Shown here: positions 31,934-37,645 of the stretch, piece after piece
Layout of the letters: each line of letters begins with the position of its first letter
Numbering within the stretch: position 1 is the stretch's first letter
DNA from: Staphylococcus sp.
GTDB taxonomy: Bacteria; Bacteroidota; Bacteroidia; Bacteroidales; Muribaculaceae
Length of the DNA stretch: 47,164 bases
Reading direction: 5' to 3'
Assembly (NCBI GenBank): GCA_023665865.1
Contig: JAMPDC010000001.1
Location: 1,294,294-1,341,457, forward strand
Made by a program: the position numbers and the translations under genes
Notes under the pieces: generated by a model
What the model was told of the DNA's origin: nothing
The model's input: the letters and a program-made list of their open reading frames with translations, nothing else
Databases searched by the model: none

Positions 31934-32893
31934 TCAGACGAAACGCGGGGTGGCGAGATGGGAGCCGCGGAGGAAGTCGGCGGTGGGCATGCGGCGTTTG
32001 CCGGGAGCCTGGAGGCTTATGATCTCGATGCTTCGGCTGTCACCTGTCCCTACCCACATCCGGTTGCCGTCGACGACGATCTGTCCGGGGGCTGCCTGAC
32101 GGCTGTCGACCCTGGTCTCGAATATCTTCACTGCTCCGACAGCGTTGTCACCGTCATGGAGCTCAGACCATGCGGCGGGATAGGGCGAGAGACCGCGCAC
32201 GAGGTTGTGGATCCTCTCTGCGGGAAGATTCCAGTCGATGCGGCAGGTCTCCTTGAAGATCTTGGGTGCCGGCGTAGGCTCCGTGTCGCCGATCAGCCTC
32301 TCCTGCGGTATGGGAGCGAGAGTGCCGGCTATGATATCGTCGATAGTCTTGATGGTGAGGTCGGCTCCGAGCATCATGAGGCGGTCGTGGACGTCGCCCA
32401 CGTTGTCGGTCGGGAGGATGTCGATGCGCTCCTGGGCTATGATGTCGCCGGTGTCTATCTCGTGTTTGAGGAAGAAGGTTGTGACGCCGGTCTGAGTGTC
32501 GCCGTTGATGACGGCCCAGTTGATGGGAGCGGCTCCGCGGTAGCGCGGGAGGAGTGAGGCATGGAGATTGAAGGTGCCGAGGCGGGGCATGGTCCAGACG
32601 ACTTCGGGGAGCATCCTGAAGGCGATGACGATGAAGAGGTCGGCGTTGAGCGAGCGCAGTTCGTCGACAAATTCAGGGTCTTTGAGCTTGACGGGCTGCA
32701 TGAGGTGGAGTCCACGGGCGATGGCAAACTCCTTGACCGGCGATTGGTAGAGCTTGTGGCCGCGGCCTGCGGGCTTGTCGGGCATTGTGACGACGCCTAC
32801 GACGTTATATCCGCCGTCGACGATGCGACGGAGGCTTTCGACGGCAAAGTCGGGGGTGCCGAGAAATACGATTCTGAGATTGTCCTTTGTCAT
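31934..32893 (-). CDS. fmt: Methionyl-tRNA formyltransferase
   Basis: This 319-residue enzyme formylates initiator Met-tRNA. The N-terminal Rossmann part begins RIVFLGTPDFAVESLRRIVD. The catalytic/folate block FNLHASLLPRYRGAAPINWA and IDTGDIIAQ carry the essential Asn, His and Asp. The C-terminal OB-like tRNA-binding domain starts near 210. It is 14 bp after the trpB2 stop, so transcription with that gene is likely. Confidence 0.96.
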   Translation of the reverse strand: MTKDNLRIVFLGTPDFAVESLRRIVDGGYNVVGVVTMPDKPAGRGHKLYQSPVKEFAIARGLHLMQPVKLKDPEFVDELRSLNADLFIVIAFRMLPEVVWTMPRLGTFNLHASLLPRYRGAAPINWAVINGDTQTGVTTFFLKHEIDTGDIIAQERIDILPTDNVGDVHDRLMMLGADLTIKTIDDIIAGTLAPIPQERLIGDTEPTPAPKIFKETCRIDWNLPAERIHNLVRGLSPYPAAWSELHDGDNAVGAVKIFETRVDSRQAAPGQIVVDGNRMWVGTGDSRSIEIISLQAPGKRRMPTADFLRGSHLATPRFV

Positions 32894-32907
32894 TATACTC
32901 TGATTGT

Positions 32908-34290
32908 TCAGTCCTTGATGTCGAGGGTGCCTGATTGGGCGAAATTCTTGTCGATATCCTGTTCGGTGACGGTGTAGTTGACGAGGTCGCCGGAGAGAAA
33001 CTTGTCATACGACGCCATGTCGACCAGTCCGTGGCCCGAGAGGTTGAAGAGTATGACTTTTTCCTCGCCCGGTTTGAGCTTCCTGACCTCGCGGATGGTT
33101 GCGGCTATGGCGTGGCATGATTCGGGGGCGGGGATGATGCCCTCCGCACGGGCGAAGAGGCAGCCTGCCTCAAACGATTCGAGCTGCTCGATGTCGACGG
33201 CTTCCATGAGACCGTCCTTCAGCAACTGGCTGACTATGGTGCCTGCACCGTGGTAGCGGAGACCTCCAGCGTGGATGTTGGCGGGTGAGAATTTGTGGCC
33301 AAGGGAGTACATGGGCAGCAGAGGGGTGTAGCCCGCCTCGTCGCCGAAGTCATAGCAGAACTTGCCTTTGGTCAGCTTGGGACATGAGGCCGGCTCGGCT
33401 GCGATGAAGCGCGTGTGGGTCTTGCCCTGCTCGGCTGCAATCTTGTGGCGCATGAAGGGGAAGGAGATGCCTCCGAAGTTTGAGCCTCCTCCGAAACATG
33501 CGATGACCATGTCGGGATATTCGCCTGCCATCTCCATCTGTTTCTCTGCCTCGAGGCCGATGACGGTCTGGTGGAGGGCCACATGGTTGAGGACTGAGCC
33601 GAGGGTATATTTGCAGTCGGGGGTGGTGCGGGCAAGCTCGACGGCTTCCGAGATGGCGGTGCCGAGCGAGCCCTGGCAGTTGGGGTTGACGGTGAGGATG
33701 TCTTTGCCTGCGCGGGTCGACATGGAGGGTGAGGGGGTCACCTGTGCGCCGTAGGTCTGCATGATGCTGCGGCGGTAGGGCTTCTGCTCGTAGGAGATCT
33801 TGACCTGATAGACGGCTGCCTCAAGGCCGAAGAGCGAGGCGGCATAGGAGAGCGAGGCACCCCACTGGCCGGCTCCGGTCTCGGTGGTGACGTTTTTGAC
33901 GCCCTCTTTCTTGCAGTAGTAGGCCTGGGGGATGGCTGAGTTAAGCTTGTGGGAGCCCATCGGGGAGACACTCTCGTTTTTGAAATAGATGTGGGCGGAG
34001 GTGCCGAGGGCTTTTTCGAGGCCGTAGGCTCTGACGAGAGGGGTCGAGCGGTAATACTTATACATCTCGCGCACCTCTTCGGGGATGTCGATCCAGCGGT
34101 CGGTGACGTTGAGCTCCTGGTCGCAACATTCGCGGGCGAAGATCGGGTAGAGGTCCTCGGCTTTCATCGGCTCGCGGGTCTGAGGATTGAGCGGAGGGAG
34201 GGGCTTGACGGGCATGTCGGCCATGATGTTATACCATTTGCGGGGGATCTCTTCTTCGTCGAGGAAATATCTTTTTTTCTTTCCGTTCAT
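32908..34290 (-). CDS. Tryptophan synthase beta-like protein, type 2 (TrpB2)
   Basis: This 460-residue PLP enzyme is much longer than TrpB1. The PLP lysine is Lys115 in MGSHKLNSAIPQAYY. The phosphate-binding loop is FGGGSNFGG (about 266-274), and ETGAGQWGASLSYA contains the catalytic-region residues. The N-terminal extension (1-75, DEEEIPRKWYNIMAD) and NESVSPMGSHKLN are marks of TrpB2, which condenses indole with serine without TrpA. Bacteroidales commonly carry it apart from the trp operon, perhaps to salvage indole. Here it heads a two-gene unit with fmt. Confidence 0.92.
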   Translation of the reverse strand: MNGKKKRYFLDEEEIPRKWYNIMADMPVKPLPPLNPQTREPMKAEDLYPIFARECCDQELNVTDRWIDIPEEVREMYKYYRSTPLVRAYGLEKALGTSAHIYFKNESVSPMGSHKLNSAIPQAYYCKKEGVKNVTTETGAGQWGASLSYAASLFGLEAAVYQVKISYEQKPYRRSIMQTYGAQVTPSPSMSTRAGKDILTVNPNCQGSLGTAISEAVELARTTPDCKYTLGSVLNHVALHQTVIGLEAEKQMEMAGEYPDMVIACFGGGSNFGGISFPFMRHKIAAEQGKTHTRFIAAEPASCPKLTKGKFCYDFGDEAGYTPLLPMYSLGHKFSPANIHAGGLRYHGAGTIVSQLLKDGLMEAVDIEQLESFEAGCLFARAEGIIPAPESCHAIAATIREVRKLKPGEEKVILFNLSGHGLVDMASYDKFLSGDLVNYTVTEQDIDKNFAQSGTLDIKD

Positions 34291-34391: not shown

Positions 34392-35792
34392 TCAGAGGAT
34401 AGCTATTTTCGCCCGCCGTCCGTCGGAATAGCTGACGATGTAGACTCCGGCAGTGAGACTGGAGGTCTGCGTGCCTGCGTAGGCTCCGGTGAGGGTGTGG
34501 ATGGCGGTGACGGTCGTCGGTGAGGTTGCCGTGGGGGTGGAGACCGAGGTGGTGGCCCTGTCGCGGACGGGGCGGATGTTCATGCCCAGATGGGCCGAGC
34601 CGGTGAGGAGCATGGCAGACTCGGGGAGGAGTGCGGCGTAGGTGGGAGAGATGAGGTTGCACACGGGGATGCCTATCGATGAGAGGTCTTCGGTCTCAAA
34701 GGCGAAATCGGCAACGTAGAGGGTGCTGTAGAAGCCTTCATAGACGATATTGCCCTCCGACATGTAGCCAGCCAGGGGAAAGGTCAGTGCGGTACCATTG
34801 TCAGAGGCGAGTACCACGCAATTCATGGTACCGATTGTCTCCACCCGGAGCTCTGTAGAGTCGAGGAGCTCGGAAAATTCGGCTGAGGTCGGCATCCTCC
34901 ATCCGTCGCCGAGGATCCGGGCGGCTGCGTCGTAGGGTGTCCCGATGAGGTTTTCCGTGCCGAGGTCATGACAGAGAAACATGTCGCCGTCGCAGTGGAC
35001 ATAGGTCTCCCAGTTGTAGACCTCCTTTGCCGTTGTCTCGCCGAAGGCATAGAAGTCGCCTGCCTCCCCGGGTGTTGAGGCCATGAGGTTGCGGTCGGCC
35101 CAGATGACGCTGAGCCCCATGTCGACCGGTTGTGGTTCGGAGGCGAGGGCCTGCGGGATGGAGACGAGGAGCGCGAGGGTATAGATGATACCGAGGGCTA
35201 TGGCACGCCTGGTGGCTTCGAGCATGGTCTTGGTGCTGAGTTTGCGCAGGATGTTGGAACGGTGATACTCGATCGATTTCTCCGTGATGCCGAGTGCGGT
35301 TGCTATCTCGCGGTTGCTTTCGCCCGAGGAGAGGCGACGGAGCACCTCGATGTCCTTGGCCGAGAGGATGCCGCTGGCTTTCAGCACTTCCTGGCGTCGC
35401 TCGTTGAAGGTGTTGCTTCTGTAGGTCCCGCCTGCTGCCACGGTCTGGATGGCCAGGAGGAGTTCGGCGGTGTTGTCGCCTTTGAGCACTATGCCCTCCA
35501 CGTTGGCCTTTATGATGGCGGAGATGTTCCAGAGTTCCTCGTGCATGGTGTAGATGACGGTCGGTTTGCCGAGGCCGCGGGAGCGCAGCTGCTCGATGAG
35601 ATTGAGGCCGTCCATGCCGTCGTTGAGCGAGAGATCGATGACGTAGAGGTCTATGGTCCCGATGTGTTCCGCACACATGAGCGCTTCCTCGGGCGAGGAG
35701 GCCTTGAGCACTTTGAAGCCCTTGCGCGCCAGGACGCTTTTGATGCCTTCGAGCACTATGGGATGATCGTCGACGATTAAGAGAGTTGTCAT
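34392..35792 (-). CDS. NarL/LuxR response regulator fused to a secreted-type domain
   Basis: Start at 35792 (MTTLLIVDDHPIVLEG), overlapping the kinase stop by 4 bp; 466 residues. REC domain 1-120 has Asp8/Asp9, phospho-acceptor Asp53 (YVIDLSLNDG) and Lys104. LuxR-type HTH 140-203 has LSAKDIEVLRRLSSGESNRE and ALGITEKSIEYHRSNILRKL. A hydrophobic stretch ending QALA-SEP (about 197-217) looks like a signal peptide. Residues 222-410 match the domain of exported Bacteroides proteins (VDMGLSVIWADRNLMAS, GDFYAFGETT, GTPYDAAARILGDGWRMPT). The end (LTAGVYIVSYSDGRRAKIAI) resembles a type IX-like tail. No frameshift is needed. An internal ATG at 35225 (Met190) would start the exported part alone. Confidence 0.88.
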   Translation of the reverse strand: MTTLLIVDDHPIVLEGIKSVLARKGFKVLKASSPEEALMCAEHIGTIDLYVIDLSLNDGMDGLNLIEQLRSRGLGKPTVIYTMHEELWNISAIIKANVEGIVLKGDNTAELLLAIQTVAAGGTYRSNTFNERRQEVLKASGILSAKDIEVLRRLSSGESNREIATALGITEKSIEYHRSNILRKLSTKTMLEATRRAIALGIIYTLALLVSIPQALASEPQPVDMGLSVIWADRNLMASTPGEAGDFYAFGETTAKEVYNWETYVHCDGDMFLCHDLGTENLIGTPYDAAARILGDGWRMPTSAEFSELLDSTELRVETIGTMNCVVLASDNGTALTFPLAGYMSEGNIVYEGFYSTLYVADFAFETEDLSSIGIPVCNLISPTYAALLPESAMLLTGSAHLGMNIRPVRDRATTSVSTPTATSPTTVTAIHTLTGAYAGTQTSSLTAGVYIVSYSDGRRAKIAIL

Positions 35793-37645
35793 AGTTGATT
35801 GATGTAGAGAGTGTATGTTTCGTCCGTCCTGCAAGTCTCCACCGTGGCTCCGATGATTGCCGCGCGGGCCTTGATCGTCTGGTTGCCTATGCCTGCGGGC
35901 GAGGTGGCCGAGGCGTTGCCGGGGACGATGCCGTTGTTTTCGATCGTGAGTCTGAACTTGTCGGTGCCGTCGAGGGTGATCCGGATCTCGTTGCAGTCGG
36001 AATGGCGGATAGCGTTGCTGACAGCCTCCTGCACTATGCGGTAGAGCTCATGGTTCTGCTGGGCGGTCAGTGAAAACCAGTCGAAGGTCCCCTCGTCGGT
36101 CAGATGGATGTATCGGCCGGGGAAGGTCTCGTTCTGTTTCCTCACGAAGTCAAGCAGCAGATTGGGCAGCATGGTGTCGAAGAATTCCGGGGGCATCATC
36201 TCGCGTGAGATCATACGGACTTTCCGGGCAATGTCGGTCAGAGTTTCGGCTATACGCTTATGGTCGTTGTCGGCGAGGCGATATTGCAGCGCGAGGAGCC
36301 TCCCGCCGATATTGTCGTGGAGCTCGCGGGCCATCCGTGTGCGCTCCTGCTCTATGCCGCGCAGATATTCCTCCTTCTTCTCGATGGCGTTGAGGCGCTC
36401 CTGGAGTCGGTGGCGACGGCGATACCACACGGCTGCCGCCGTGCTGCCGCAGAGGGCGAAGAGGCAGATGAGCACTATGCTCACCATCAGCCAGCGCTGA
36501 CGGCTCAGACTGGCAATCTCCATCTCCTTGCTGAGAGTGTCGTAGCGCACGGAGAGGTCGGCCAGCTCATGGTCGATGCTTGTCCGGCGCAGCGAATCGA
36601 GGGCTGCGTAGGCACGGCTCATGCGGGTGTAGGCGCCGCGGTAGTCACCCATATTGGCCAGACAGTCGGCGCGTTCTGACTCGATGACATCCGGCGCTTT
36701 CCCGTGTGACCCGAGCGAATCCAGCTCACACATCACTTCCCATGCCTCCCCGTAGCGGTGCTCGGCTTGCAGAAGGAGCGCTTCGGCCGTCAGATAGTTG
36801 CTGTAGGCCTGATGGCTGCGGGGATAGCCCTCCACACAGCGGCCCATCTCGCCGATAGCCTCGCGGGCCTGCGGGAGGGAGTCGAGAGCGATATATGACC
36901 TCACGAGAGGCGTGAGAAACTTGATGCGGTAGAGCGGAGCTGTCAGCCGCGAGAGTCCGGCGTAGGGCCTCAGTTCGCCGACGGCTTCCCGGTAGTTCCC
37001 CTCCTTCATCAGTATGGCGCCCACGGTGCCGATGGCCGAAACCATAGCCGTAGTGTCGGCAAGCTCCCCGGCCAGTCCCAGCGATCTCCGGGCGAAGTCG
37101 AGAGCCTCCGGCAGATGATTGTTCTCGGCATAGACCACGGCGAGCATATCTGCAAACGTCTGCTGCATCTCGACATTGTCCTCCCCGATGGCTATCGCAA
37201 GCCCACGGTTGTAGCAGGCGAGGGCTGAGTCGTAGAGCTCCACGCGGCGATAGACGATGCCTTTGTTCTGTTCCCCCTGCATGACGGCCTCACCCATCCC
37301 AAGAGCACGCCCCTCGGCTATCAGAGTGTCGGCAAACGCGCCTGCCCCCTCGAGATCGCCCCTGTTGAGCAGGGCCACGTCGCGCTCGATCATCACATAG
37401 AGCCTCAGCGAGTCGCTCATCGTGCAGTTGGCAAGCAGCGAGTCGGCAGTGGAGATAGCCTTGGCATAGTCACCCTCGGCACCCGGACCGGCGACAAGCA
37501 TGAAGGCTTCTTCTTCCTCATCGGGGGCGATACAGGCTTTGGAATGGCTGAAATGATTGCAGCTGCCCAGAAGCGGCAGCATCATGAGCGGGAGCAGGAC
37601 TGAGAGCCACACATTGCGTGCAGCAGAGAGAATGAGTCGGAGCAT
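35789..37645 (-). CDS. TPR-sensor histidine kinase (HisKA_3 type), lipobox-bearing
   Basis: Start at 37645 (MLRLILSAARNVWLSVLLPL); the earlier ATG at 37864 lies in the tRNA. Length is 618 residues. The signal sequence ends in LLGSC (Cys29), a lipobox. TPR-like helices fill about 55-375 (for example ALACYNRGLAIAIGEDNVEM, NMGDYRGAYTRMSRAYAALD). One membrane helix is at about 385-407. The kinase core has His443 (RMARELHDNIGGRLLALQYR) and ATP motifs VQEAVSNAIRHSD, IENNGIVPG and AGIGNQTIKARA. It should phosphorylate Asp53 of the overlapping regulator. The periplasmic TPR part is the likely sensor; the stimulus is unknown. Both a lipid anchor and a transmembrane helix would be unusual. Confidence 0.9.
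   Translation of the reverse strand: MLRLILSAARNVWLSVLLPLMMLPLLGSCNHFSHSKACIAPDEEEEAFMLVAGPGAEGDYAKAISTADSLLANCTMSDSLRLYVMIERDVALLNRGDLEGAGAFADTLIAEGRALGMGEAVMQGEQNKGIVYRRVELYDSALACYNRGLAIAIGEDNVEMQQTFADMLAVVYAENNHLPEALDFARRSLGLAGELADTTAMVSAIGTVGAILMKEGNYREAVGELRPYAGLSRLTAPLYRIKFLTPLVRSYIALDSLPQAREAIGEMGRCVEGYPRSHQAYSNYLTAEALLLQAEHRYGEAWEVMCELDSLGSHGKAPDVIESERADCLANMGDYRGAYTRMSRAYAALDSLRRTSIDHELADLSVRYDTLSKEMEIASLSRQRWLMVSIVLICLFALCGSTAAAVWYRRRHRLQERLNAIEKKEEYLRGIEQERTRMARELHDNIGGRLLALQYRLADNDHKRIAETLTDIARKVRMISREMMPPEFFDTMLPNLLLDFVRKQNETFPGRYIHLTDEGTFDWFSLTAQQNHELYRIVQEAVSNAIRHSDCNEIRITLDGTDKFRLTIENNGIVPGNASATSPAGIGNQTIKARAAIIGATVETCRTDETYTLYINQL

Follow-up and report, generated by a model that had tools for sequence, protein, structure and literature searches.

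A phosphorylatable DNA-binding response regulator and an apparently exported lectin-like protein share one open reading frame in the 47,164-nucleotide stretch of DNA analysed here (the window), and they have stayed in one frame over long divergence. The fusion is a genuine, inherited architecture: full-length copies are present in 10 genomes from 4 genera of a single family, and the domain order and frame are the same in all of them. As a rule, response regulators are regarded as soluble proteins whose output domains lie in the cytoplasm. Judged from the sequence, the likeliest reading is that this frame gives rise to two products, a regulator and a lectin-like protein that is exported, whether cleavage or an internal start separates them; we hold this reading tentatively and place it somewhat short of an even chance. 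If it is true, processing of one bacterial gene would supply both a switch inside the cell and a protein at its surface. If the two halves instead remain tethered, a membrane-bound regulator would read a ligand outside the cell. Either reading would change the annotation of two-component output in gut Bacteroidales.

One frame from receiver to putative exported domain

The fusion ORF lies on the minus strand and runs without interruption from an ATG at 35792 to a stop that ends at 34392. Its parts, together with the gene of the partner histidine kinase, are listed below in window coordinates.

34392..35792, minus strand: whole fusion gene, REC-GerE-signal segment-FISUMP/lectin-like-tail, 466 aa
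35448..35780, minus strand: REC domain, residues 5-115 (Pfam PF00072, Response_reg, above the gathering score, E 1.4e-18)
35205..35369, minus strand: LuxR/GerE helix-turn-helix (HTH), residues 142-196 (Pfam PF00196, above the gathering score, E 5.5e-15)
35223..35225, minus strand: conserved internal Met190, a possible second start that would give a 28-residue signal peptide
35139..35201, minus strand: signal-peptide-like segment, residues 198-218, with putative cleavage ALA|SE after residue 217 (hydropathy and site scans)
34557..35129, minus strand: FISUMP-like domain, residues ~222-412, predicted C-type lectin-like fold
34395..34508, minus strand: C-terminal tail, residues ~429-466, apparently a distant relative of type IX sorting tails
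35789..37645, minus strand: partner histidine kinase, its start at 37645 inferred from reading

REC and GerE scored above their Pfam gathering scores in all nine fusions scanned (L079, the tenth, was outside the scan). Residues D8, D9, D53, T82 and K104, which we take to be the receiver's acidic pair, phospho-Asp, Thr and Lys, were invariant in the seven aligned fusions. In its REC and GerE domains the window protein is like a NarL/FixJ-type response regulator. However, a regulator of that type ends after the HTH, at ~205–215 aa, and the window protein continues to 466. An earlier note, made from the letters of this DNA, had described one uninterrupted frame with REC followed by a LuxR HTH, and then a hydrophobic, signal-peptide-like stretch ending in ALA-SEP. 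The frame and both domains were borne out, on the minus strand (the note named no strand), and the stretch is present: the protein's top 19- and 15-residue hydrophobic windows both start at residue 198.

Recurrence across genomes

The ten genomes with a full-length fusion, the window's own included, are G000, G005, G085, G289, G237, G304, G349, G803, G804 and G810. Identity to the window protein ranged from 41 to 52% in six aligned fusions. Within the window's genus, 2/27 genomes gave a match at E<=1e-40, both of them full-length. Among 397 genomes of the family, seven full-length fusions came up in a profile search, and three further genera had a full-length fusion in 6/111, 1/49 and 1/14 genomes. 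A pattern scan of genome contigs found nine loci, four of them full-length. At the level of the order, the only match at E<=1e-45 in a sample of 393 genomes was the window's own. A search of 296 genomes of the phylum with the regulator alone as query established no further full-length fusion; outside the window, no match lay in an open frame longer than 328 aa apart from those in G841 (1154) and G819 (363). These two long frames were rejected as fusions because they are open upstream of a normally ending regulator, and a 518-aa frame in G261 was rejected on the same ground. The order of REC, HTH, hydrophobic segment and exported domain, which the earlier note had proposed to look for in relatives, does recur in them, and this recurrence supports its claim of a new design. 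We found no description of the architecture in the literature searched for membrane-bound response regulators and FISUMP-type fusions.

It is scarcely credible that the frame is a product of sequencing or assembly. Three of the four named full-length records are labelled MAG, which invites the suspicion, yet the fourth, Barnesiella sp. WM24, is a RefSeq genome without that label. Moreover, the frame and boundary are identical in ten genomes, and third codon position changes dominate in both halves of both close pairs of fusions (L050/L079 and L080/L081).

Unfused relatives, selection and trees

Unfused or truncated relatives make up 5 of the 15 fused and unfused rows. Four of them (L040, L041, L042 and L084) stop at 201–204 residues, with LGII plus 0–1 residue, and this is the point at which fused proteins enter the hydrophobic segment. 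The fifth, L039, stops 11 residues into that segment, and its downstream sequence is without any exported domain. No exported domain was found within the fetched flanks of 46 regulator-only loci (tblastn, E<=1e-4), and the flanks fetched for later regulator-only loci, including the unfused L082, L083, L084 and L085, were likewise negative at that threshold. Two adjacent genes were rejected as the ancestral state, since the exported domain is absent from these flanks. The earlier note had seen a regulator part of normal length up to about residue 203, and had held that its proposal would fall if close relatives always had two separate genes. Some relatives do stop near that residue, but a separate second gene was not seen, and the unfused loci that were read are without a detectable exported gene in their fetched flanks.

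The fusion had also been suggested to be recent, by loss of a stop codon. This is refuted by the diverged homologues, at 41–52% identity, that carry it and by purifying selection on both halves. In the L050/L079 pair dN/dS was 0.03 for the regulator and 0.10 for the exported half; in the L080/L081 pair the values were 0.09 and 0.06, with a junction value of 1.25 on seven changes. These two close pairs show purifying selection across the regulator and the exported half alike. That the hydrophobic segment is unused, the whole protein cytoplasmic or the fusion decaying is very improbable. The five unfused or truncated relatives would fit such a state, as would the poor full-length AF2 model (pLDDT 56), which was set aside. 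Against it stand the dN/dS values of 0.03–0.10 in both halves, the exported domain modelled alone at pLDDT 93, and a junction that has kept its hydrophobic character and its sites despite sequence drift.

A tree of 32 regulators unites the 15 fused and unfused rows in a single clade (100/100), within which L039 pairs with the fused L038 (100/100) and L040 with the fused L037 (95/91). Because L039 and L040 are nested in supported fused clades, their lack of the module is most simply read as loss; the placement of L041, L042 and L084 is without resolution. In the exported-domain tree the window groups with L036, L037 and L038 (95/96, plus the relic L063), and this group recurs in the regulator tree (94/94, plus L039 and L040). 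A second exported-domain group, L043, L051, L050 and L079 (99/98), is found only partly in the regulator tree (L043 with L051), where the fused state requires six changes and is not a single clade. The two halves thus appear mostly to have travelled together, and independent gains may also have occurred; the case for a single origin of the fusion draws on two trees that agree only in part, and it falls short of proof. The relic, L063:1501-1902 (+), is what is left of an L037-type exported domain and comes from a genome of the same genus as the window. It is without a regulator and adjoins a transposase-like ORF (judged by eye).

The putative exported domain and its tail

Family models matched the exported domain below threshold only: Fib_succ_major (PF09603) at E 0.18 and 12.5 bits, against a gathering score of 33.9, and FISUMP (TIGR02145) at 13.6 bits, against a curated cut-off of 41.65. 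As modelled alone, with confidence, the domain appears to resemble C-type lectin-like folds; a Foldseek search gave no match at E<=0.001. Searching solved structures by sequence returned 14 rows, of which 11 were "Pizza" designed repeat proteins. The sole row in which a single stretch passed by itself was a proteasome subunit (E 0.17).

The domain is also found outside the fusion. L055 (1468-2310, minus strand) belongs to the same FISUMP-like subfamily, whose members bear the tail, but stands alone: its domain and tail, of the kind seen in the fusion, follow a start that looks like a signal peptide. The fusion is like such secreted proteins in domain and tail, but L055 is a separate gene; the regulator beside it is presumably PorX-like. 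L056 (1501-3432, minus strand) encodes a 643-aa Ser/Thr kinase (Pkinase) with a C-terminal FISUMP-like domain, 43% identical to the exported domain over 122 residues, and a TM-like stretch identified by eye. Because a related domain is C-terminal in this kinase, sensing by the exported-domain family is plausible by analogy.

The type IX-like tail of the earlier note stands in part. TIGR04183, the model for such sorting tails, gave no match at E<=10 in any of the seven fusion tails scanned, whereas local profiles relate the tail to TIGR04183-type tails of the window's own genome. That genome has eight TIGR04183-matching tails, five of them over the model cut-off. In a forward test, a profile of eight fusion tails found seven of the eight, each of which outscored the best of 800 shuffles as well as the 28 other C-termini encoded in the window. 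In the reverse test, seven of the ten fusion proteins beat 800 shuffles, the window protein barely so (9.4 vs 8.7 bits), and the tails of L036, L037 and L038 did not. By these profile comparisons, the fusion tail is a distant relative of the type IX tails that the genome itself encodes, one that curated models fail to recognise. SprA, the component searched for, was over its cut-off in 10/10 fusion genomes and 0/14 controls. Its presence is as expected for genomes with type IX cargo, but the fusion tails fall outside the TIGR04183 class.

The junction and an internal methionine

Mean pairwise identity across eight fusions was 0.51 for REC, 0.55 for GerE, 0.44 for the exported domain and 0.23 for the junction. 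The junction sequence drifts while its hydrophobic character stays. It is the top 15-residue hydrophobic window in 9/10 fusions (the exception is L080), is preceded by 2–4 K/R and has a moderate hydropathy (1.59–2.52 in nine fusions). The linker length is zero, as the hydrophobic run begins right after the last helix of the HTH. A strict signal-peptidase-type site (A at -1; A, G, S, T or V at -3) follows the junction in nine of the ten fusions, compared with 0.25–0.44 for same-length stretches elsewhere in the same proteins, although signal-like segments are Ala-rich in any case. Once the near-copies L079 and L081 are left out the count is 7/8; L043 has no acceptable site. Only the strict rule carries weight, because a looser rule is uninformative against a background of 0.73–0.96.

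Met190 (window numbering) is present in 10/10 fusions and also in 5/5 unfused or truncated relatives, and the segment counted from it has an ordinary signal-peptide length. Upstream of Met190 the mean AT content is 0.54 in fused and 0.57 in unfused genes. Predicted local folding near it is slightly weaker in fused genes (-8.0 vs -10.2 kcal/mol, a nominal difference on which the sequences split). Fused genes show signals for an internal start no more clearly than unfused genes do.

One gene and possibly two products

The arrangement that we propose is a FimS/FimR-like two-component operon in which the regulator gene would carry a complete exported protein in frame. The hydrophobic segment after the HTH would insert N-in/C-out via Sec, and signal peptidase I would cut after the A-X-A-type site. 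The products would be a NarL-type regulator that keeps a short hydrophobic tail and a lectin-like protein delivered to the periplasm, perhaps with its sorting-like tail taking it via the type IX system to the surface. Alternatively, an internal start at Met190 could yield the same exported protein, and by either route one gene would make two products. The likely use would be a surface or periplasmic ligand-binding partner made in step with the regulator, and this partner might feed the TPR sensor of the kinase, much in the way proposed for PorA and PorXY. Co-expression by itself is no sufficient reason for the fusion, because an operon would do.

Between two products and a permanent tether, we lean tentatively towards two products. 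On the main rival reading, possible if doubtful, the chain stays whole, with REC and HTH inside, one TM and an uncleaved, periplasmic lectin-like sensor, a ToxR/CadC topology with a receiver added. DNA binding would then answer both to phosphorylation from the kinase and to a ligand bound outside. The domain order fits this, the receiver and kinase are intact, the related domain of L056 sits at the C-terminus of a Ser/Thr kinase that has a TM-like stretch, and the evidence for cleavage is motif enrichment only. However, the segment is short and of only moderate hydropathy, and with no linker the HTH would lie against the membrane without reach to DNA. ToxR and CadC possess a linker. Strict sites in nine of ten fusions and a sorting-like tail would be superfluous to a tether; because neither is needed by one, they suggest that the C-terminal half is freed.

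The exported half might also act as an export-substrate tether that holds the regulator idle, or at the membrane, until it is released by Sec/type IX export and cleavage, so that the cell would sense its own capacity for export; we regard this as unlikely. In such a scheme the regulator would be the cytoplasmic head of a surface-lectin precursor, its HTH held at the bilayer until the export machinery cut the cargo away, and transcription would report both the kinase signal and surface-protein export, a proposal equally improbable to us. The zero-length linker would suit it, as would the sorting-like tail together with SprA in all ten fusion genomes. There is also the case of PorA, which has a type IX tail and a lectin-like domain and is described as feeding PorXY (PMC7712824). 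On the other side, some lineages lack the module yet keep the regulator, and the SprA count covers the ten fusion genomes and 14 controls.

Comparison with known systems

The nearest functional parallel is the proposed relay from PorA to PorXY. PorA of Porphyromonas gingivalis is type IX-tailed, has a domain like the mannose-binding domain of FimH, and is proposed to pass a surface signal on to the two-component system PorXY-SigP (PMC7712824). PorA has a gene of its own and a FimH-like fold, whereas the exported domain of the fusion appears C-type lectin-like and lies within the regulator gene.

ToxR, CadC and VtrA consist of an N-terminal DNA-binding domain, one TM and a C-terminal periplasmic domain (PMC9214523). 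The fusion has the same domain order, and its topology may match. These proteins have a CadC-type HTH without a receiver or kinase partner; the fusion, in contrast, has REC and GerE, a kinase upstream, no linker and a signal-peptidase-type site, and falls outside the winged-HTH one-component class. In Bacteroidales, the Bacteroides hybrid two-component systems also tie REC and a DNA-binding domain to an extracytoplasmic domain. They hold sensor, kinase, REC and AraC-type HTH in one chain, with the periplasmic part N-terminal. The order in the fusion is reversed, and its kinase is a separate, overlapping gene and not part of a single chain.

The partner kinase and its neighbourhood

The gene directly upstream of the fusion matched HisKA_3 over the gathering score in 10/10 cases and TPR models in 10/10. 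It overlaps the fusion gene by 4 nt in 8/10, including the window; gaps of 6 and 12 nt separate the two in L049 and L051. The window kinase has a signal/lipobox-like N-terminus, TPRs, a TM (by eye), HisKA_3 and HATPase_c. Lipobox-like starts ahead of the TPRs (LLGSC, FSAC, LCAC, VCC, GC) were seen by eye in partner kinases, namely those of the window (35789-37645, minus strand), L037:3199, L038:3193, L043:3177 and L042:3160. The partner kinases are possibly both lipid-anchored and membrane-spanning, to judge by these features.

FimS/FimR of P. gingivalis comprises a sensor kinase with periplasmic TPRs between two membrane regions and a transcriptional regulator (PMC11053733). The window kinase matches the FimS model NF053520 (E 4.3e-12), yet at 45.1 bits it is far below the cut-off of 600. 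We know of no exported domain carried by FimR. Tandem genes lie directly downstream of the fusion at L037:6606-11389 and L038:6562-11365. The three of these that were scanned are fimbrillin-like (PF13149), and two of the three also have BspA leucine-rich repeats, BACON and M64 peptidase domains. Such surface-protein neighbours would suit a FimSR-like system, by analogy. The next gene in the window, in contrast, is not fimbrial. The gene order downstream is common to the window (31934-34290) and to G005/L036:6689-9045, and consists of what we take to be a tryptophan-synthase-beta-like gene followed by a methionyl-tRNA formyltransferase-like one.
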